Origin: a virus
Strand: one strand, 5' to 3'
IMG/VR virus record: IMGVR_UViG_3300031812_000022
Location: 1 to 23,472 of that record
Length of the DNA: 23,472 nucleotides
Positions within the stretch are counted from its first letter, which is position 1; each line of letters begins with the position of its first letter. A program made the translations under genes and the position numbers. This document shows, one piece after another, positions 1 to 20,069 of the stretch. The notes beneath the pieces were generated by a model. That model was given only the letters and a program-made list of their open reading frames with translations. It did no database searches and was not told where the DNA came from.

Positions 1-2682
1 AAGCCTAACCAAAGCATCATGGTTCTTTGCTAAATTCTCTACTTCCTGAAGTCTTGTTTCGTCGTATTTGGTTAGAGTGTTTAGAAGTGCTGTTTGATTT
101 ACTATTGCACTATTTAAGTCATTAGTACGATTGTTTATTATCGTTATAATGTCTTTAATGTCTTGTGTAACTCCTGCATTATCCAAAAACAATTGTCTTT
201 GCTTTGCTGTTATAATCCCCATTCTTTCTAGTTCGTTTACAATGCCAGCATAGATATTCCAAGCCTCCCTGCTAGCAACAATATTAATTCCAAAAGCTCC
301 AGTGCTAAATTGACCCTGGTTTTCCTGTAGCCACCTTAAGAAGTCTTCTAACTTACCTTTTTGTTGTTGTAACGAGTTAATACTTGCTCTTACTCTCTCC
401 GCTTCTCTTTCTCTTTCTTGCTTAGTCATCTCCGAGAGGTTTTTGTTAACTACCAAGATAGATTGGTTTAGATTTGCTAGTCTTTCCTGTAATCTTCGTA
501 TTTGTTCTTCTGTTTCTCTTATCTCTTTCTTTAGATAAAACTCATTCCTACCTCTTCCACCTGATGTTAGTTCGGTATTCAAAGTAACAAGCCTTTTTTG
601 TAGTCTTTCTATCTCACTTTGTGTTTCATTTATCTGTTTACGGTAGTATTCATTAACAATATCAGCTTGCTTTTTAAACTTTTCATCTAGTGTCTTCGTT
701 AACTCATCTAGTGCCATTTCCATGTCTCTAGTTGTATAGATTTCGCGCATTCTATCCTTTATGTCTTCAAGTCTTCTATCAATCTCTTCTAGCTCTGCTT
801 TAAGCCGATTGGCGTTAGAAATGGTAGTTTTTGTTTGCTGGTTGTAAAAAGAAATAATATTAGTAACATCATAAACCACTTGTGAAAGAAGAGTAATACT
901 ACCAACCAATGCTGAAGTGGTGTCTCCAGACATGATACCAGTTGCGAGTTCTTGAATAGAGGAAATATAAGTTTTTAAAGAACTAGCCGTTGCACTACTA
1001 ATTATACCGATTTTTTCTAACCCATTCACTAAAGCATCCAATACTCTAACAACATCGCTAATCGTTTTCTTAATTTCCTCCAAAACCTTTTTAAGTTCCT
1101 CTGAGTTGTCTTTGCTTTCATTTAGTTTTTCTGTTACTTTATCTAAATCTATTACTACTTGTGTTAAGTCTACATTTTCCAAAACTGCCTGCCACTCTTC
1201 AGCTGTTAGTTTGCTAGTTTTTAGCTTGTCTACAATTTCTCCAAAACTACCCTTTAAGTTGCCTACGGCTAATTGTGTTTTAAGTAAACTATCCACCTGT
1301 TCTTGTATTTTCTTTTTATTCTCCTCTGTTAGTGCATTATTTGCTTTTAGGAACTCTACTAGTTTTTCCAAAGCTGTTAGTCTTTCCTTTAACAAATCTA
1401 AAGTGTCTTTTTGTTTTGTTTTTGTTTGCTCTTCTTCCTCCTTAATTGTTTTTATGCTTGCTAGCGTAGTAGTGTTTATTTTTACCTGTCTTTCACCATC
1501 ACTGTTTATTTCCTTTATTTTCTTACTTATTTCATTATACTCACCCTTTAACGATACGATTTTATTTAGTAGTTCATTAGCATTAGCGGGTGATAAATTG
1601 CTTATTATCTTTCTAAACTCACTTTCAGCGCCAACACTACCAGCAAACAAAGCTTTTATGAAGTTTTCCCCAACCTCTTTACGGCTGTATTGGAAAATTA
1701 ACCTTCTAGCCTCACTAATTAACGCCTCTTGTTTTTTTGCTAACTTTTCCACATTTTTGGTTTCTAAAATGCCGATATTCTCCAGTAGGTTTTGGAATAC
1801 TTTTGTAATATTAGTTGCAATATTAATAACAAAACTTAATACCTGTGATAAAATATTCATTAATGCTTTAAAAGCGGGTTCTAACCCTCTTACCACCTCA
1901 CCCACTTTTTCAAACGCAGGTGCTAATGTATCCGCTAGTCTCGTTGCTAAATCACTTACAACATCCAAAATTGGTAAAATTATTTTAGCAATGGATTTAA
2001 GAATGTTATTAAAAGCAATCTGTGCTTTAGTTAAACTATCCACTTTCCCCTGTGCTTCAGCCATACCACCGTATGTTTTAACAAGGTAGTTTATTATTTC
2101 GGTGTTATCCTTTGCTGTTTTGTTTAAGTTCTTAAGATTAGCATCATAGCGGGTTAGTGCACTTTCTCCCGTTGTGAGTTGTTTATTAAGTTGTATAAAA
2201 GCAGTTTGTAAATCCATTCCGAATGTTGCACTAATACCAGCTGCGAGTTTAGTTAATTCTTTAGCCTGCTCTGCTGTCATACCCATCTGAATACCCAACT
2301 TAACAACCCCCAGGATAGCATCATCATCAACAGCCATTAGTCTAGATAACTCTGAAGAAAACTTATCTAGTTCCTCCGTTATTGCTTTTATCTCTTCTTT
2401 GCTTTTTCCAATCCCCAATAATGCTACTTCTAGTTGCTTAAGGTTTCTTTCTTTTTCTATAGCCCCCTTAATAGCATTTGTTAACTGTCTAAAAGCCTCT
2501 ACGATTAACATAATTTTACCAAAAGCACCAATGATGGAGTTACCAATATTGGCTAACCCCCTACTTGCATTCTCCGCTTCCTTTGGAATGTTCTTAACTT
2601 TTTCATTTACGGTGGCTATGTTCTTAACAGCATTATCTACTTCAGCCTTAATTTCATAAATAACTTGGATATCGCTTGCCAT
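1..2682 (-). CDS. Phage tail tape measure protein (N-terminal 894 residues, runs off left edge)
   Basis: The reading frame is open from an ATG at 2682 to the window edge. The product would set tail length and act as scaffold and DNA-injection channel inside the tail tube. The translation is long, alpha-helical and rich in K, E, L and N. It has a helical N-terminus with A/N repeats (residues about 10-60), glycine/alanine-rich hydrophobic stretches (about 230-320 and 540-620) and long coiled-coil stretches with many RLxxL/EIxRL heptads (about 640-800). This is the pattern of tape measure proteins, and it is the largest gene of the tail module, placed after the tail tube gene. No clear Shine-Dalgarno sequence precedes the ATG, but a copy of the dispersed 25-base motif lies about 40 bases upstream. 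Domain assignment rests on architecture and position, not on a specific catalytic motif. Confidence 0.88.
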   Translation of the reverse strand, partial: MASDIQVIYEIKAEVDNAVKNIATVNEKVKNIPKEAENASRGLANIGNSIIGAFGKIMLIVEAFRQLTNAIKGAIEKERNLKQLEVALLGIGKSKEEIKAITEELDKFSSELSRLMAVDDDAILGVVKLGIQMGMTAEQAKELTKLAAGISATFGMDLQTAFIQLNKQLTTGESALTRYDANLKNLNKTAKDNTEIINYLVKTYGGMAEAQGKVDSLTKAQIAFNNILKSIAKIILPILDVVSDLATRLADTLAPAFEKVGEVVRGLEPAFKALMNILSQVLSFVINIATNITKVFQNLLENIGILETKNVEKLAKKQEALISEARRLIFQYSRKEVGENFIKALFAGSVGAESEFRKIISNLSPANANELLNKIVSLKGEYNEISKKIKEINSDGERQVKINTTTLASIKTIKEEEEQTKTKQKDTLDLLKERLTALEKLVEFLKANNALTEENKKKIQEQVDSLLKTQLAVGNLKGSFGEIVDKLKTSKLTAEEWQAVLENVDLTQVVIDLDKVTEKLNESKDNSEELKKVLEEIKKTISDVVRVLDALVNGLEKIGIISSATASSLKTYISSIQELATGIMSGDTTSALVGSITLLSQVVYDVTNIISFYNQQTKTTISNANRLKAELEEIDRRLEDIKDRMREIYTTRDMEMALDELTKTLDEKFKKQADIVNEYYRKQINETQSEIERLQKRLVTLNTELTSGGRGRNEFYLKKEIRETEEQIRRLQERLANLNQSILVVNKNLSEMTKQEREREAERVRASINSLQQQKGKLEDFLRWLQENQGQFSTGAFGINIVASREAWNIYAGIVNELERMGIITAKQRQLFLDNAGVTQDIKDIITIINNRTNDLNSAIVNQTALLNTLTKYDETRLQEVENLAKNHDALVRL

Positions 2683-2722
2683 GTATTGAATTATTTATGA
2701 TTGGTGTTTCAAAAAGCATGTC

Positions 2723-2747
2723 ATATATTCTATGTGTATATATTATA
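2723..2747 (-). promoter_or_regulatory. Dispersed 25-base motif upstream of the tape measure gene
   Basis: TATAATATATACACATAGAA then TATAT on the minus strand, in the 78-base gap before ATG 2682. The tape measure gene lacks a visible ribosome binding site, so the motif may be important for its expression. Confidence 0.65.
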
Positions 2748-2760
2748 GAACTTGAGGTTT

Positions 2761-3327
2761 TTAATAAATCCTCAAAGCTCTCTTAAACTCTTCTAAATTC
2801 CAAGCCCCTGCATTATCCACAGCCACATTAAAACGGTGGTAGTTTAAGTTAACTAAAAGAATTCTTAACTCCTCAAAGGTAAGATTAAAGATTTCTTCCA
2901 AAGAACGCCCTGAATAAAAAAATAACTGTGAAACTGAATAATACATGTTTCTTGTGAAACTATCAAAATCAAAATTGTTTTCTTCGCTTTTGTTCCCTTC
3001 ACTACCGACATTATAATTCAAAATCTCTTGATAAATGGTTTGTAATAGTTTTAATTTTTTATCTTTTCGCATTAACAAAAACTTAAGTTTATCCTTAAGA
3101 GAGTAGAAAGCAAAGAAAGAAGAGAAAAGCCGCTTTGTGATGTTATTAATTTTCTTAAACTCTAATTGGTTTTGTTTAATCAAAAAAGTTAGCAAATCGC
3201 CACTAATTGCTTTGGTTTTGTTAAGGATATACAGGAGTAAATAAACCTCCCGTATACCCTTTTTAAATATTTTAACTTTAACCCCATCCCAGGTAAAGAT
3301 TTTTACCTTATCCAGGAACACTAGCAT
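2761..3327 (-). CDS. Probable tail assembly chaperone (position-based), 188 residues
   Basis: Its start overlaps the stop of the tail tube gene (TAATG) and it lies between the tail tube and the tape measure, the slot used in siphoviruses for the chaperone that coats the tape measure during tail assembly. The protein is basic and mostly helical, with a lysine-rich patch (KDKKLKLLQ, about residues 88-96) and a C-terminal helical half. Many chaperone genes are expressed as two products through a -1 frameshift. Here only about 78 bases remain before the tape measure gene and I see no long overlapping second frame, so no frameshift product is supported. Sequence similarity alone would not have identified the function. 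The role is inferred from gene order. Confidence 0.6.
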   Translation of the reverse strand: MLVFLDKVKIFTWDGVKVKIFKKGIREVYLLLYILNKTKAISGDLLTFLIKQNQLEFKKINNITKRLFSSFFAFYSLKDKLKFLLMRKDKKLKLLQTIYQEILNYNVGSEGNKSEENNFDFDSFTRNMYYSVSQLFFYSGRSLEEIFNLTFEELRILLVNLNYHRFNVAVDNAGAWNLEEFKRALRIY

Positions 3328-3938
3328 TATGTGCCACTGTTTAATGTCCCAACAACACCAAGCACACCTTTGTTATCAGAACCATCTACGCTTAAAGCCT
3401 GGAGTTTTAAAGTTAATATTTGCTGTCCACTCGGGTTATAACTAATCTCTAAACCACTAGCCGAAACTACTTTAAACAAAAGTATAGCCGTAGGGTCAGA
3501 ACCTGTCCCAAACTTCGGTGTGTCTGTTAGATTAGAAGGGTCGTAACTGGTATGATAAAGTAAAAGAGTAAAAGAATTAGTTATCTCAGTTCCCCTGTAG
3601 GAACCCTTTAGTGCCTTCACACCACCCGCAGTATCAACATTGGTAGGGTTGATTTGGAAATACTTAACAAGTGTTTCGTAACTAATATCCGCAATAGGAA
3701 TTTCCACTTCTACCTTGTCAACACCATTGATTATTCTTTTTCTTATTCCTTCCTGGTCGGTTTGTAAGTCTAGTAAGTCTCTGGATATTGTTATTTTAGC
3801 CTCCCCATTTGTGAATATTTGTTTCCATGTTACACTGTTTGGTATTGTTCCACCTACAGCACTATCCACGTTTGCAGATGTCCAAGTATACGTGCTAAAA
3901 AACACACGATACGAACCAGTTAAAACATTGCTTGCCAT
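3327..3938 (-). CDS. Major tail tube protein, 203 residues
   Basis: This would polymerise into the hollow tube of the siphovirus tail. The translation is beta-rich with many T, S, V and G residues, starts MASNVLTGSYRVFF, and has the mix of short beta strands and an alpha segment near residues 60-75 (EGIRKRIINGVDKVEVEIP) seen in tail tube proteins. It lies directly between a tail terminator-like gene and the chaperone/tape measure pair, which is the standard order. A strong ribosome binding site (GGGGGTGAAAG) precedes the ATG at 3938. Among the tail genes it is the best candidate for the abundant structural protein. The exact family within the lambda gpV/HK97-like tube fold cannot be settled by eye. 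Confidence 0.78.
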   Translation of the reverse strand: MASNVLTGSYRVFFSTYTWTSANVDSAVGGTIPNSVTWKQIFTNGEAKITISRDLLDLQTDQEGIRKRIINGVDKVEVEIPIADISYETLVKYFQINPTNVDTAGGVKALKGSYRGTEITNSFTLLLYHTSYDPSNLTDTPKFGTGSDPTAILLFKVVSASGLEISYNPSGQQILTLKLQALSVDGSDNKGVLGVVGTLNSGT

Positions 3939-3968
3939 CTTTCACCCCCTTAAACAAAATGATAACCG

Positions 3969-4331
3969 TTAATAAAACAAATAAACAATTTCAAAATTAA
4001 TCTCCAGAACTGATAGTTTTAATTTTTCATCTTTGGTTCTTGTGATGTTTGTTATTCTTGTTACTGCAAAATTATTGTCTCTTATCGTGCTTAACTTTCT
4101 TAAAAAATCATTAAAGTTATCAAAAGATAATAAGTTATCCTTAACTTTTATAAACAAAGCAATTTCACAAACCAAACCTCTTCCATCCTGGATGTATTTT
4201 TCGGTGTTAGATAAGCAAGCAATTTGCTTGTCTTGTGTGTTCAAAAAGTCTTCAAACGGAACTAATCTAACATTATAAGCATTTAGTAATGGTGTTATTC
4301 TTGTTTTTATCTCTTCACTAACCCAATCCAT
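3969..4331 (-). CDS. Tail terminator/completion-like protein, 120 residues
   Basis: The length and alpha/beta composition fit the small proteins that cap the tail and join it to the head (lambda gpU/HK97 gp-type minor tail proteins). The N-terminus is an amphipathic helix (DWVSEEIKTRITPLLNAY), followed by alternating strands (GLVCEIALFIKVKD and LKLSVLEINFEIVYLFY). It lies immediately after the gp10-like gene and before the tail tube gene, the expected place. The ribosome binding site is GGAGGGGGTAAA before the ATG at 4331. The call depends mostly on synteny and size. A head-tail joining role is the main alternative. Confidence 0.6.
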   Translation of the reverse strand: MDWVSEEIKTRITPLLNAYNVRLVPFEDFLNTQDKQIACLSNTEKYIQDGRGLVCEIALFIKVKDNLLSFDNFNDFLRKLSTIRDNNFAVTRITNITRTKDEKLKLSVLEINFEIVYLFY

Positions 4332-5417: not shown

Positions 5418-5431
5418 AAAGCCCCCAAAAT

Positions 5432-5456
5432 AAAAGGGAGGTTTAACCTCCCTTTT
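5432..5456 (-). terminator. Rho-independent terminator after the capsid operon
   Basis: An almost perfect inverted repeat (AAAAGGGAGGT / ACCTCCCTTTT with a 3-base loop) is followed on the minus strand by TTTTATTTT. It overlaps the stop of the 60-residue gene. It would limit transcription from the capsid genes into the connector genes, a common way to keep capsid expression higher. Confidence 0.75.
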
Positions 5457-5637
5457 ATTTTTCCTTTTTCTTTTCTTTTATCTTATCTTCCTGTGTTGTT
5501 ATCGTAGGTGAATTAACAACTAGCAAGGTAACAATGTTTTTTAGTTTTTCATAGTCTTCTTTGCTTATTTCCACTTCTTCGTCCGCTTGTATTAGTCTTC
5601 CGTTATACCAAAAACTTGCTAATGCTTTAACTATCAT
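5455..5637 (-). CDS. Small head-module protein, 60 residues
   Basis: A short gene directly after the capsid gene with a very strong ribosome binding site (GGGGGGGGTGA before ATG at 5637). The N-terminal 45 residues (VKALASFWYNGRLIQADEEV and following) look like the small beta-fold proteins often found after phage capsid genes. The last 15 residues are almost all K and E (DKIKEKKKEK). Such proteins are variously described as capsid fibre or head-tail accessory proteins, and I cannot choose between them. Its stop codon lies inside the terminator hairpin at 5432-5456. Confidence 0.7.
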   Translation of the reverse strand: MIVKALASFWYNGRLIQADEEVEISKEDYEKLKNIVTLLVVNSPTITTQEDKIKEKKKEK

Positions 5638-11354: not shown

Positions 11355-12547
11355 CTAAGTTAATTTAATTGCTTTATTCCCTGTAAACCACTCCCACCTG
11401 TCTGTAACAGTTTGAACATATAGCGGATTCAATTCCATTCCATAACAAACTCTATTTGTTTTTTCGCAAGCGATTAAGGTGGAACCAGAACCTAGAAATA
11501 AATCCAGAACTACATCTCGTCTTCTTGAGGAGTTTAATATTGCCTTCTCAATCAATTCAATTGGTTTTTGAGTAGGATGTAAATCAGATTTTAAAGGTTT
11601 ATCTATTTCCCAAACCGATTGCTGATTTTTACCATAAAATTTATGTTTACCCCACCAGCCGTATATTATAAATTCATGTTTCGGTTGGTAATCTAATCTG
11701 CTTAATACTATATTATTCTTTACCCATACGAGGATTTGCGATAAATAAAATCCACTTCTTTCTAGCTCATTAAGCAAAACTACTAAGTCCTTACCAGAAA
11801 AGGTAATATAAACTGAATTGTAATCGTTGACAGAGCTTTTGATGTTGATAAGAAAATCTCTGCAAAAAGAGGCAAAATTAGGAATGTTATCGTTCAATAT
11901 AGGCGTTTGAATGCGATTCCCTTCATCTAGTTTATTAAGAAACACATTTTTACTTGAATAATCCACATTATAAGGCGGGTCAATGAAAACCATATCTGCC
12001 TTTTTGCCATCCATTAATACCTCTACATCCTCCTTCCTCGTTGCGTCCCCGCACATTAAGCGATGGCGCCCTAATAGAAAAATATCGCCCTGTTTTATAT
12101 CTGTTTCCTTTTTGGGCTCGGAAATCTCATCTTCTTTTTTGCCCAAATCTAAATCAAAAATCTTATCCAATTCCTCGCTACTGAATCCTACCCTTTTTAA
12201 TTCGTCTTCCGAAAAATTCGCTAACAAATCCCAATCCCATTCGCCAACATTTTTATTGCTCCTTAATAAATACTCTCTCGCTTCTTCTTCTGTTAGTGGC
12301 CTGCTAGGAACCCTAACCTCAATCTCCTCTTCTTCCCAGCCAAGCGCTTTTAATGCCTGAACTCGCATATTACCCGCAATAACTCTATTCTTTTGGTCAA
12401 TTACTATTAACTCAACGTAATTAAATTTTTTTTTAGAGAATTTAGTAACTGCTTCGCTTGTTCTTGTGACATCTTACGAGGGTTCCCTTCAAACAAGATT
12501 AAGTCTCTTACTTTCCTCTTTTCAGTTTTCCAATAAAGCGGTTCCAT
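11355..12547 (-). CDS. ParB-like/DNA methyltransferase (beta class), frame broken at an A9 run
   Basis: The long frame (11355-12368, 337 residues from its first ATG) is a beta-class amino-methyltransferase: DPPY catalytic motif in VFIDPPYNVDY (about residues 128-136) before the S-adenosylmethionine motif DLFLGSGST (about 289-297), with HPTQKP between them. It would methylate adenine N6 or cytosine N4 in DNA. Upstream in another frame (12407-12547, 46 codons) lies the missing start of a ParB-like domain (VRDLILFEGNPRKMS). The two halves join at nine A (12426-12434). One extra A, or a -1 ribosomal slip on A AAA AAA, gives one protein of about 397 residues continuing with FNYVELIVIDQKNRVIAGN. 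No ribosome binding site precedes ATG 12547. A TATAAT lies only seven bases before it, so a leaderless mRNA is possible. It lies immediately upstream of terS. Confidence 0.82.
12426..12434 (-). other. A9 slippery run joining two frames of the ParB-methyltransferase
   Basis: On the minus strand CTCT is followed by nine A and then TTTAATTAC. The upstream frame reads CTA AAA AAA AAT and stops 15 bases later at TAA. The downstream frame needs one base more. A -1 ribosomal shift or RNA polymerase slippage (+1 A) would restore it. A sequencing or assembly error in the homopolymer would look the same. Confidence 0.7.
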
Positions 12548-15067: not shown

Positions 15068-15088
15068 TTCCCACATGGTGCAGATATA
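15068..15088 (-). promoter_or_regulatory. Conserved 21-base leader block, copy 3
   Basis: On the minus strand TATATCTGCACCATGTGGGA lies between a T-rich terminator and the ribosome binding site of the gene starting at 15046. It matches blocks at 16145-16165 and 16804-16824 at about 17 of 21 positions. It may be a promoter, operator or RNA element; function unknown. Confidence 0.6.
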
Positions 15089-15215: not shown

Positions 15216-15252
15216 ATAAAAAAAAGGGAAAGAGATTTAAACCTCTTCCCCC
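15216..15252 (-). terminator. Rho-independent terminator after the gene at 15237
   Basis: The minus strand reads GGGGAAGAGG, a TTTAAAT loop, CTCTTTCCC, then eight T. The stem begins inside the end of the 76-residue gene. This is a strong intrinsic terminator and would separate the small-gene cluster from the recombination-like gene. Confidence 0.75.
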
Positions 15253-15467
15253 TTTTTTGAATACTTGGATAGGAGATATTCTAGTTCTCCTATCAAGGAA
15301 ACTATTTCCTGCTTTGGAATGGGTGGTTTTTTAGAATAGTACCACTCCCAAAGCAGGTCAATAAGAAACTTTACAGCGCCAAGTGCGCCGTATTTTTGTA
15401 TTATTCCTGGTAAGTCCCATACAACCCAGTTAAATTTTATTTTTAGTTCCTTTATTAGTTCCTCCAT
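15237..15467 (-). CDS. Unknown small protein, 76 residues
   Basis: I do not recognise it. It starts with an acidic helix (MEELIKELKIKFNWVVWDLP), then GIIQKYGALGAVKFLIDLLW, a short KKPPIPKQE proline linker and a second helix ending SKYSKKGEEV. No membrane segment is long enough to be convincing. The ribosome binding site GGAGGGAGGT lies directly before ATG at 15467. It is the last gene before a strong terminator, in a run of small early genes that includes the ring nuclease. Confidence 0.65.
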   Translation of the reverse strand: MEELIKELKIKFNWVVWDLPGIIQKYGALGAVKFLIDLLWEWYYSKKPPIPKQEIVSLIGELEYLLSKYSKKGEEV

Positions 15468-15477
15468 ACCTCCCTCC

Positions 15478-15753
15478 TTATTTTTTTAAGGGGGTTTTAG
15501 CCCCCTTTAAAACTTTTAGCAAATAATTATAAAGTGAATTGTTTACAATTTCAATCCTCACTTCTACTTTATCGGCAAGGTGGATAAACTCCACCTTACC
15601 ATAAACACTATCCCATCGGGTAATAAGGTAAGTATTCTCTTGAAAATTTGTAAAATCAAGAATACGGTAGCCTATTTCCTCTACCGTATCCCTTAAACTG
15701 AAGAGAAACTGGCGTTCCTCTCCGGTGGTTATTATAACTTTTAATTCATTCAT
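15478..15753 (-). CDS. Unknown small protein, 91 residues
   Basis: I do not recognise it. It is an alpha/beta protein with alternating strands (LKVIITTGEERQFLFSL, YLITRWDSVYGKVEFIHLAD, KVEVRIEIV). Its ATG at 15753 overlaps the stop of the ring nuclease gene by four bases, so the two are probably translated together, and it could act in the same process. The gene end lies in a GGGGGC/CCCCC hairpin without a T tract. A partner role with the ring nuclease is inference from coupling only. Confidence 0.65.
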   Translation of the reverse strand: MNELKVIITTGEERQFLFSLRDTVEEIGYRILDFTNFQENTYLITRWDSVYGKVEFIHLADKVEVRIEIVNNSLYNYLLKVLKGAKTPLKK

Positions 15754-16125
15754 TTTCTCCCCCTTCTCTTAACCCCTGTATAAATCACAACAGGGGTGTC
15801 GTTTATAACTATTAAGAATTTAAACTGTAATTTTGCTAATTCCTCTTCTGTTAGAATTTTGCCCTCTTCCAATCTCGTGGTTAACTGGAAAACCACGAGA
15901 ATATCCTGGGTATTTAAACTAACTTGGATGCGATTAAATGGAATTGGAATATTTAGCAGTCTTGATAGCAACTCAGCCGTTGCTTGGTGCCCAACGGCTG
16001 ATACAAAGTTGCTTTCTTGTGAAAGCAACTTTTTTAACATCTTCTAGCGAAACTTCCCTCACGCGCAAATACGCGGGGAAGCTTGAAAGCATCGAGAGAC
16101 TAAACGCATTTGATACATAAATCAT
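15750..16125 (-). CDS. Viral ring nuclease AcrIII-1 (DUF1874), split by a one-base frameshift
   Basis: Members of this family (STIV B116, SIRV1 gp29) degrade cyclic tetra-adenylate and so switch off type III CRISPR defence. The start at 16125 follows GGAGGAGGG and gives MIYVSNAFSLSMLSSFP, the family N-terminus. After residue 30 the frame changes at six A (16030-16035). The second frame carries SAVGHQATAELLSRLL, with the conserved catalytic histidine (H46 in the joined protein, H47 in SIRV1 gp29), then PFNRIQVSLNTQDILVVFQL and TTRLEEGKILTEEEL. Joining the frames needs one A fewer and yields 124 residues, a usual family length. Unshifted, the N-terminal frame adds about 20 foreign residues and stops. 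The C-terminal frame alone has an ATG at 16040 with no good ribosome binding site, and lacks the N-terminal strand. It is broken, recoded or misread; I cannot tell which. Confidence 0.86.
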
Positions 16126-16144
16126 ACAACCCTCCTCCTTTAAA

Positions 16145-16165
16145 ATCCCATATGGTTCAGATACA
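16145..16165 (-). promoter_or_regulatory. Conserved 21-base leader block, copy 2
   Basis: On the minus strand TGTATCTGAACCATATGGGA lies 20 bases before the ribosome binding site region of the ring nuclease gene, directly after a terminator T tract. CCATATGG in its centre is a perfect palindrome, which suits a protein binding site. Confidence 0.6.
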
Positions 16166-16170
16166 AATAA

Positions 16171-16191
16171 AAAAAAGGGGGGTTAACCCCC
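16171..16191 (-). terminator. Rho-independent terminator after the gene at 16200
   Basis: The minus strand reads GGGGGTTAACCCCCC followed by eight T. It lies nine bases after the stop of the 192-residue gene and just before the leader block of the ring nuclease gene. Confidence 0.65.
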
Positions 16192-16199
16192 TTGAAAAT

Positions 16200-16778
16200 T
16201 TACTTTATACTTTCCATTCTTTCTTTGAATTCTTCATAAAAATTTTCAAGTATTTTTATAATTTTTTGGTTTTCTTTTAGTATTTTGAAATATATAAACT
16301 TGTCATCATTCTTGATTTCCATAAATACTTCATCGCAAATAATAAGTGTTCTATTATTATCTTCTTCAATGTTAAAATTTTTTCTAAATTCCCATTCCAA
16401 AGATTTTTTTATGAATTTAGCAATAACTATCCTTGTATCTTCTGGGTGTGGCTTACCTATTTCCCCGCCACACTTATACCAATTTATGATCAAAGTTACC
16501 CCATGAACATCTTGAAATTTAACCGTTCCATCGTTTGATAGAAACTTATTTGTTCCCCACATTATACCAACCTCCTTTTTTAACACATCCTCGCTCATTA
16601 AGGCGAGAATGTAGTTATGTAAATGTGGGGAAAATGGAATGGATATTTCATCCATATCCATTTCTAATTTTTCTAGGGCTCCGAGAGCCCCTCTAACGTT
16701 TATATCCACCCCCATGTAAGATGGATATAAACTTTTCACAAACTCGGTTATTTTTGATAATTCTTTAATGTCAATCAT
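16200..16778 (-). CDS. Unknown protein, 192 residues
   Basis: I do not recognise it. The N-terminal 80 residues are helical with a short glycine-rich stretch (GVDINVRGALGALEKLEMDM). The middle (about 85-135) looks beta-rich and has GVTLIINWYKCGGEIGKPHP followed by EDTRIVIAKF. The C-terminal part is acidic and helical (NFYEEFKERMESIK). The ribosome binding site AAGGAGGAGGG precedes ATG at 16778, and upstream is a copy of the 21-base leader block. It shares this leader arrangement with the ring nuclease gene, so the two are probably controlled alike. A counter-defence or host-takeover role would fit the context but nothing in the sequence shows it. Confidence 0.7.
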   Translation of the reverse strand: MIDIKELSKITEFVKSLYPSYMGVDINVRGALGALEKLEMDMDEISIPFSPHLHNYILALMSEDVLKKEVGIMWGTNKFLSNDGTVKFQDVHGVTLIINWYKCGGEIGKPHPEDTRIVIAKFIKKSLEWEFRKNFNIEEDNNRTLIICDEVFMEIKNDDKFIYFKILKENQKIIKILENFYEEFKERMESIK

Positions 16779-16803: not shown

Positions 16804-16824
16804 ATCCCACATGGTTCAGATACA
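16804..16824 (-). promoter_or_regulatory. Conserved 21-base leader block, copy 1
   Basis: On the minus strand TGTATCTGAACCATGTGGGA follows a UUCG hairpin and precedes the TTAAGGAGGAGGGTT ribosome binding site of the gene at 16778. The leader from here to the ATG is nearly the same as that of the ring nuclease gene. Confidence 0.6.
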
Positions 16825-17246: not shown

Positions 17247-18512
17247 TTAATAATCTTCCTCATAGTCCTCACTTCTTATTTCGCTAAAAAATTCCATTAT
17301 TCTTTCCGTATCCCCTTTATAGAACACCAAAACGTTTTGGTGAACTTTTACGACTTTCCTTGTTTTCATTTGCTTTCTAGCACGAACTGCTGCATTTCCA
17401 ACCGCGTTTAAATAAACAATATCGTTATAGAATTTTAACCCCGCTTCTTTAAATACTTCTTTTGTTAACTCCACTAATCCTCTATAAACTCCGTCTCTAT
17501 CTCTTACCTCAGAAACAACAAACACAGCAAACCGATTTTCCGCTAGTAAATCACAACTCTTTTTAATTATTGCTTTATATCTTTCCTTAAATCTCTCCCA
17601 GCTCATGTTACTTAAATCATTTGGATTATCAGTATAACGTTCCAAATCAAAATACGGTGGGCATGTGAAAATCAAATCAAACTCACGCTTTGGAATTAGT
17701 TTATCTATGTCATAACTGTCTCCAAGAACGTAGTTAGGTTTTACTTTTAATAAATGCTGTAACTCTTCTACCTGCTCCAAATTTGCTTTTATTTGCTCCT
17801 CGCTTATATCAACCCCCCAATACTCGTATCCAAGATAGCCAGCCACGAACCCCCTTGTGACACCGCCACTAAACGGGTCTAGAATGATACCATTTTCAGT
17901 ATTGAACCACCTATAACAAATCTCCGCCAATACTGGGTCAAACTTAGATGTCCCCTCTCCACCACCAAGTTGTTTAGAAATTCCAAGCAGTTTCGTTGGT
18001 CTTCCTTTTGTTCCATCAAACCCGAGTTCTTCCCATTCTGTCATTCTTGTTATCCATGTTTGTTTCCTAGCATCCAGAACCGATAATGGCGGAACGATAA
18101 AATCTTTGCTTAATACTTTCCTCGTTCTTGTAAAAATTTTCTCCAAATCTCTATCCGAAAAGCCAATTCGTTTCAAAAAATCACTTTCAAACATTCTTAA
18201 AAGCTTCCAATCCCATTCCCCAGTGTTACGATTTAGTCTTAAACTTAGTTCCTTCTCTTTTTCCTTATCCACATTAACATAAACAACAGGAACTTCTTTT
18301 ATACCAAGTTCTTTAGCAACTAGAAGTCTAAAATGTCCGCCGATTACGATGTTTTTTCTTTCGGGGTTGGAGTTGACAATCAAAGGGTCAACGAAACCGA
18401 ATTTTTTAATGCTTTCCTTGAGTTTATCCTTTGCTTCCTTCGGAAATCTGCGAGGGTTATACTCACTTTCTCTTAACTCATTTACACTAACATAAACTAT
18501 TTCCAAAGCCAT
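17247..18512 (-). CDS. ParB-like nuclease domain fused to DNA methyltransferase, 421 residues
   Basis: Residues about 6-95 are a ParB/Spo0J-like domain (NPRRFPKEAKDKLKESIKKF with GGHFRLLVAKELG), followed by a linker with NRNTGEWDWKLL and LKRIGFSDRDLEKIF. Residues about 150-405 are an amino-methyltransferase: motif I in LDPFSGGVTRG (about 211-221), VDIS as the acidic S-adenosylmethionine loop and the catalytic TCPPY (about 283-287). It would methylate DNA, most likely to protect phage DNA from host restriction. No matching endonuclease is next to it, so it is likely an orphan. It shares linker sequence with the methyltransferase at 11355-12547 but has the catalytic motifs in the opposite order. 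No good ribosome binding site precedes ATG at 18512. Confidence 0.88.
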   Translation of the reverse strand: MALEIVYVSVNELRESEYNPRRFPKEAKDKLKESIKKFGFVDPLIVNSNPERKNIVIGGHFRLLVAKELGIKEVPVVYVNVDKEKEKELSLRLNRNTGEWDWKLLRMFESDFLKRIGFSDRDLEKIFTRTRKVLSKDFIVPPLSVLDARKQTWITRMTEWEELGFDGTKGRPTKLLGISKQLGGGEGTSKFDPVLAEICYRWFNTENGIILDPFSGGVTRGFVAGYLGYEYWGVDISEEQIKANLEQVEELQHLLKVKPNYVLGDSYDIDKLIPKREFDLIFTCPPYFDLERYTDNPNDLSNMSWERFKERYKAIIKKSCDLLAENRFAVFVVSEVRDRDGVYRGLVELTKEVFKEAGLKFYNDIVYLNAVGNAAVRARKQMKTRKVVKVHQNVLVFYKGDTERIMEFFSEIRSEDYEEDY

Positions 18513-19851: not shown

Positions 19852-19926
19852 CGGGGTTGGTGGGATTTGAACCCGCGACCTCTGGTTTGACAGACCAGTA
19901 CTCTAGCCAAGCTGAGCTACAACCCC
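19852..19926 (-). tRNA. tRNA-Asp (anticodon GUC)
   Basis: The minus strand folds as a full cloverleaf: seven-base-pair acceptor stem GGGGTTG/CAACCCC, D arm GCTC...GAGT, anticodon arm CTGGT-CTGTCAA-ACCAG with anticodon GTC, variable AGGTC and T arm with loop TTCAAAT. One C-A mismatch is in the T stem. The discriminator is G, as required for aspartate. CCA is not encoded. Confidence 0.92.
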
Positions 19927-19936
19927 TTACACAAAT

Positions 19937-20004
19937 TGGGGCTCGCGGGAGTTGAACCCGCCCTTTGGTGTTAAAACCACTGCTCTACCCCGAGCCAAAG
20001 CCCC
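19937..20004 (-). tRNA. tRNA-like gene with defective anticodon arm, identity uncertain
   Basis: The acceptor stem GGGGCTT/GAGCCCC with discriminator A, the D stem GCTC/GAGC and the T arm GCGGG-TTCAACT-CCCGC are intact. The whole is only 68 bases. The D loop has six bases without the usual A14. The anticodon arm has only four pairs (TGGT/ACCA) around a six-base loop TTTAAC. Depending on where the missing base is placed, the anticodon is UUA (would read the UAA stop) or UAA (leucine). It may be a degenerate tRNA, a pseudogene or an unusual suppressor. Confidence 0.6.
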
Positions 20005-20069
20005 AAAACAAGGGAGTGGCTATGTCTTCTACGCCACCCCCAAAACTTTGGAATGGTTTTACTTAAAAA

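Follow-up and report, generated by a model that had tools for sequence, protein, structure and literature searches.

Ring nucleases of the AcrIII-1 family degrade cA4, the activator of single-strand RNases such as Csx1/Csm6 (PMC7293037; PMC10897365). The AcrIII-1/Crn2 proteins SIRV1 gp29 (6scf), STIV B116 (2j85) and AFV3-109 (2j6b) belong to the same family as a gene in an IMG/VR virus record, classed linear, whose whole 23,472 bases (the window) we analysed, and they share with it the GH.AT and RLEEG motifs and the predicted fold. The window gene differs from them in being split in two frames and in having a C-terminal extension of approximately 18 residues; furthermore, its coding sequence is hairpin-rich, whereas the DUF1874 genes of SIRV2, STIV and lipothrixvirus are not. 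We conclude that it represents a known anti-CRISPR family in damaged form and is not evidence for a recoded anti-CRISPR, and that the part worth following is the hairpin-written accessory block in which it lies.

The original prediction described a DUF1874/AcrIII-1 gene laid out in two frames, with a ribosome-binding site before the N-terminal frame, the catalytic histidine in the C-terminal frame and a single-base break at six A; direct reading bears out the coordinates and the layout (Table 1), and the family, histidine and break hold as well. The N-terminal frame begins MIYVSNAFSLSML, its opening behind AGGAGG reads MIYVSNAFSLSMLSSFPAYLRVREVSLEDVKK, and the C-terminal frame contains SAVGHQATAELL, the motif SAVGHQATA and TRLEEGK. 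Against PF08960 (STIV B116-like, DUF1874; curated cut-off 26 bits) the C-terminal frame alone scores 82.9 bits (2e-23) over profile positions 28-100, and the chain joined by a single +1, or four-base, step in the A run (124 aa) scores 96.7 bits over positions 1-100, so that both exceed the cut-off. The split is not a product of chance, because the N-terminal part by itself matches a window-free profile (19.5 bits, domain E 0.0012, positions 1-34) and this independent match ends where that of the C-terminal part starts (106 bits, positions 31-105), the two pieces abutting at the A run. In an alignment of 14 sequences, residues G45, H46 (the histidine of GHQAT), R84, E87 and G88 of the read-through do not vary, and neither does N6, which is absent from the 96-aa frame. 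The joined chain, rather than the 96-aa frame by itself, was modelled with AlphaFold2; the model reached a pLDDT of 89.9, and its best PDB match is 6scf (Foldseek E 1.5e-11). As written, the gene does not encode a continuous chain with the N-terminal strand; the N-terminus lies in the other frame and a +1 step is needed to reach it. Family and modelled fold identify the gene as a phage AcrIII-1/DUF1874 ring nuclease with predicted cA4-degrading activity, and the encoded enzyme would degrade cA4 (cyclic tetra-adenylate) and so turn type III CRISPR effectors off.

Table 1. Coordinates of the DUF1874 gene, its hairpins and the surrounding accessory genes in the window
Feature	Position	Strand	Remarks
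76-aa gene	15237..15467	-	z -3.3; beside DUF1874 in L046 too
91-aa gene	15478..15753	-	start overlaps DUF1874 stop (ATGA); z -6.1, the strongest in the window
DUF1874 C-terminal frame	15750..16040	-	96 aa; core, GHQAT catalytic motif and RLEEGK motif
Perfect 8-bp hairpin	15772..15797	-	close to the gene's 3' end
Perfect 10-bp hairpin	15873..15900	-	over VVFQLTTRL codons
DUF1874 N-terminal frame	15973..16125	-	ATG 16125, stop ends 15973; 50 aa, first ~31 codons family-homologous
Perfect 10-bp hairpin	15973..16001	-	over SAVGHQATAE codons; directly after the 12-bp hairpin
Perfect 12-bp hairpin	16005..16032	-	loop ACAA; last three A of A6 make up its 5' foot
A6 run	16030..16035	- (T6 on +)	meeting point of the N- and C-terminal frames, +1 relative to the N-terminal frame
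Predicted hairpin, N-terminal part	16050..16084	-	same position as a 12-bp hairpin of L046
Shine-Dalgarno AGGAGG of the N-terminal frame	~16134..16139	-	direct reading
Repeated element TATCTGAACCATATGGG	16147..16163	-	before DUF1874; found again at 15070-15086 and at 16806-16822, also in L046 and G002
Terminator-like hairpin with T8	16173..16193	-	directly before the repeated element
192-aa accessory gene	16200..16778	-	hairpin-rich, z -4.3

The nature of the break is best judged from L046, a syntenic sister phage (25,098-base contig) in which gene order matches the window on both sides of DUF1874. Its DUF1874 protein is 65% identical to that of the window and is encoded in a single frame, with the junction GAAGTGAAGGAATTG and no A-run. 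Inactivation, recoding and error had been offered originally as the options for the split gene, together with a check of related phages for an intact or equally shifted copy; the list itself stands, but a recoded anti-CRISPR as its headline does not, given that the L046 copy is intact and has no shift. Between the window and L046 the C-terminal part has a dN of 0.22 and a dS of 2.7 and the N-terminal part a dN of 0.35 with saturated dS; no additional stop or shift is present in either of them. Since both halves are constrained and there is no second break, the event is either young or not real. Very probably, then, the gene owes its break to a one-base indel in A6 that is recent and non-programmed, be it a true mutation or an error of the consensus. 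Whether the indel is real in the phage is, in our judgment, an evenly balanced matter. A true mutation would mean that an accessory gene had been lost, or switched on or off by chance, and a consensus error beside the strong inverted repeat would be the alternative origin of the extra base. We infer that the break is non-programmed and would have cost the gene its activity; in the deposited sequence, a ribosome setting out from the good start site would terminate after 50 aa. Apart from serving as a warning that the deposited gene is not intact, the frame break itself carries little weight.

That the gene is intact in the real phage and broken only by sequencing or assembly is somewhat less probable than not, although an error is plausible where a homopolymer adjoins a perfect inverted repeat, both halves are still constrained and every other gene compared is intact. 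The same comparison tells against this explanation in that 23 conserved window genes, set against sister contigs, contain no frame breaks despite 37 A/T runs of at least 6, so homopolymer errors are infrequent in the contig and the idea of an error-ridden contig finds no support. True frame losses, moreover, exist in the DUF1874 family. Among approximately 60 loci fetched, two others have a frame-split look: L077 2995-3334 has an apparent +1 split at A5, reading CCCAAAAAGTTCGC followed directly by an 8-bp hairpin, with a diverged C-terminal half, and L104 2922-3283, on an archaeal MAG contig, has an apparent -1 split at a G5 run. The second halves of these splits are weak matches (9.5 and 9.0 bits) and are to be treated with care. 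In both loci the catalytic regions have diverged and parts of the R..EG motif are lost, so they resemble decayed genes and indicate that frame breaks arise occasionally in the family. Scans for DNA patterns, from whose records near-identical ones may have been withheld, found no second copy of this phage's site, searches of IMG/VR by DNA pattern or by protein found no closer copies, and no DUF1874 gene was seen in the near relatives G001-G003, although the G002 contig ends inside this region.

Programmed recoding, in which ribosomes shifting by +1 or RNA polymerase slipping at A6, aided by the hairpin, would set the level of full ring nuclease, we consider quite unlikely. It could draw on the coincidence of A6 and a 12-bp hairpin exactly at the junction, on the conservation of both frames (dN/dS against L046) and on L077, which shares the +1 direction and the layout of A-run (A5), GTT and hairpin. 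However: (i) the L077 junction falls at a different codon from that of the window; (ii) the intact L046 gene has the same hairpin without the run or the shift; (iii) the 0-frame reads GTT AAA AAA GTT GCT and has neither a stop nor an obviously slow codon of the sort found at known +1 sites; and (iv) the hairpin starts within A6, too near to act as a roadblock where mRNA enters the ribosome. Precedent for slippage comes from bacterial transcription, where it occurs at runs of approximately 9 A/T or where a nascent stem-loop forms immediately upstream of the RNA-DNA hybrid (PMC5009743). The stem-loop-dependent slippage of a Roseiflexus IS and the A9 slippage of dnaX (PMC5009743) likewise combine a homopolymer with a nearby stem-loop, but in the window the run is only 6, the strong stem lies downstream and not upstream (the predicted upstream stem ends 14 nt before the run) and the shift is not conserved. 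No Rfam recoding element matched. The hairpin was also considered as a frameshift stimulator and rejected; because L046 has it too, it is not a signal specific to the split gene, and the whole block is hairpin-rich. Less probable still is that the 96-aa frame is itself the product, a shortened ring nuclease started at ATG 16040. The ATG is there and the histidine and RLEEG motifs are in frame, but it has no properly spaced Shine-Dalgarno, the nearest purine-rich stretch being approximately 14 nt off and inside the first predicted hairpin, and the N-terminus is present in all intact relatives seen. Because this frame also lacks the first beta-strand (model residues 2-5) and the invariant N6, no full-length enzyme is expected from the gene as it stands. 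A non-programmed indel thus continues to be the explanation that we favor.

The hairpin at A6 is one of about five in the DUF1874 gene, all of which had been overlooked in the original prediction. In L046 the hairpin 16005-16032 is found at the same position with 12 of 12 pairs held, 7 of them changed on both sides, and for the hairpin 15973-16001 there 8 of 10 pairs hold, with 2 changed on both sides (compensatory). The latter is in part a by-product of the protein, because SAVGH.ATA favors pairing (GCNGT with ACNGC). We measured structure as a synonymous-structure z, taken against shuffled versions of each gene in which synonymous codons trade places, leaving the protein and the codon usage unaltered. 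The four genes of 15237-16778 have z values of -3.3, -6.1, -3.5 and -4.3, every other gene of the window lying above -2.6, and the most stable minus-strand 120-nt folds, judged against shuffles, fall mainly at 15.1-16.8 kb. The same block of the sister genome G002 holds different genes, with z values of -3.9 and -4.7. The chain of hairpins is a feature of the accessory block rather than of the frame break. No family match was found for the 192-aa gene of the block.

A 17-base element, TATCTGAACNATATGGG, precedes both DUF1874 and the 192-aa gene and occurs again near 15076; it is also found before four L046 genes and two G002 genes (copies at L046 1774, 2191, 2968 and 3614 and at L040 11286 and 11767), where the chance expectation is at most 0.15. 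Terminator-like stems stand just upstream of it at two window copies, and the one at 16173-16193 suggests a separate transcription unit. The element is possibly a shared promoter or operator and a cassette border. Given the shared element and the terminators, the accessory genes seem to be separate cassettes with common borders, which would allow their exchange by recombination.

The hairpin signal extends to other bacterial phages. Hydrogenobaculum phage 1, whose genome is complete, has DUF1874 as its only outlier (z -5.7, the next gene being at -2.8). The protein, ALG96929.1, is like that of the window a bacterial-phage DUF1874 whose gene is a strong structure outlier, but it is intact, is only 39% identical and comes from an unrelated phage, and the hairpins differ except over the catalytic motif. 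In Thermoanaerobacterium phage THSA-485A the hairpin-rich part of the genome is likewise a contiguous accessory block; all genes at z of -3.5 or lower lie in 86-4013, which includes DUF1874 (Tsac_2833), although that gene is intact and only mildly structured (z -1.9 to -2.8). By comparison, 1 of 40 T7 genes is at z -4 or lower. For phage phiBB the DUF1874 gene has a z of -3.8, although the frame scored there is lengthened at its N-terminus. Across 26 virus loci DUF1874 exceeds its neighbors in structure (mean -2.0 against -0.4, one-sided p 0.0002), a value that is descriptive, as are our other p-values, because the loci are not independent (several are HP1-like contigs), only 12-60 shuffles were used and the statistic was picked after the hairpins had been seen. 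When the HP1-like group was compared with a control by RNAalifold, the control lacked the variation needed for a contrast (91% mean column identity) and was inflated by long-range A-U pairs.

In 28 genome loci DUF1874 genes were not more structured than their neighbors, and there was no structure signal in named archaeal viruses, Fusobacterium phage FNU3, S-CBWM1 or most chromosomal copies. Nor are the hairpins specific to DUF1874, a possibility that we rejected because neighbors in THSA-485A and in a Microcystis phage exceed their DUF1874 genes in structure. Given the archaeal and chromosomal nulls and the other structured genes, the signal characterizes a subset of bacterial-phage accessory genes that includes ring nucleases as one type. 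Structured unnamed accessory genes were seen in several unrelated bacterial phages, at L040 11313-12078, L116 86-4013, L107 2092-2430, 3084-3599 and 3809-4561, and L057 1388-2080.

As for what the hairpins may do, a tentative idea, and one that we regard as doubtful, is that some bacterial-phage mRNAs of ring nucleases and their neighbors have been selected as hairpin chains, against Csx1/Csm6 or against pairing with crRNA. A message translated while cA4-activated RNases are active would gain from folding, the same fold would hinder crRNA pairing, and one coding text would carry both an RNA shield and a protein. Template-switch mutation, which can make and maintain hairpins (PMC8794818), offers another explanation; it would make or repair stems without selection, would be expected most in weakly constrained genes and predicts near-perfect stems with both sides changing together, as is seen between the window and L046. 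It would, however, affect both strands alike, whereas in 12 of 17 structured genes the coding strand carries more structure than the complementary one (Wilcoxon p 0.002, a modest test), an excess that points, modestly, to RNA rather than DNA. A role of the hairpins in translation control is a further alternative. Our literature search found no report of hairpin-structured anti-CRISPR mRNAs. If there is selection on the mRNA, phages would be shielding the message of a type III CRISPR antidote from precisely those RNases that the antidote has to shut down. Counter-defence would thereby gain a new layer, and this would provide a sequence signature for anti-defence genes not yet recognized as such, because the unnamed neighbors 15237-15467, 15478-15753 and 16200-16778 carry the signal too.

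Several further features were seen in the window. It is circularly permuted relative to contig G002 (window ends compared with L040 2119-5347), and approximately 3.2 kb of tail-region genes that belong between its two ends are missing from it. Genes for two DNA methyltransferases (N6_N4_Mtase family) lie at 11355-12368 and 17247-18512, the second with a ParB-like N-terminal domain. The stretch 19852-20005 holds a tRNA-Asp(GTC) and, adjoining it, a tRNA-like gene with an odd anticodon loop, for which ARAGORN reads a two-base anticodon and the Rfam tRNA model gives 42 bits. Finally, the intergenic stretch 5427-5461 holds a perfect 17-bp inverted repeat whose arms are separated by a single base.
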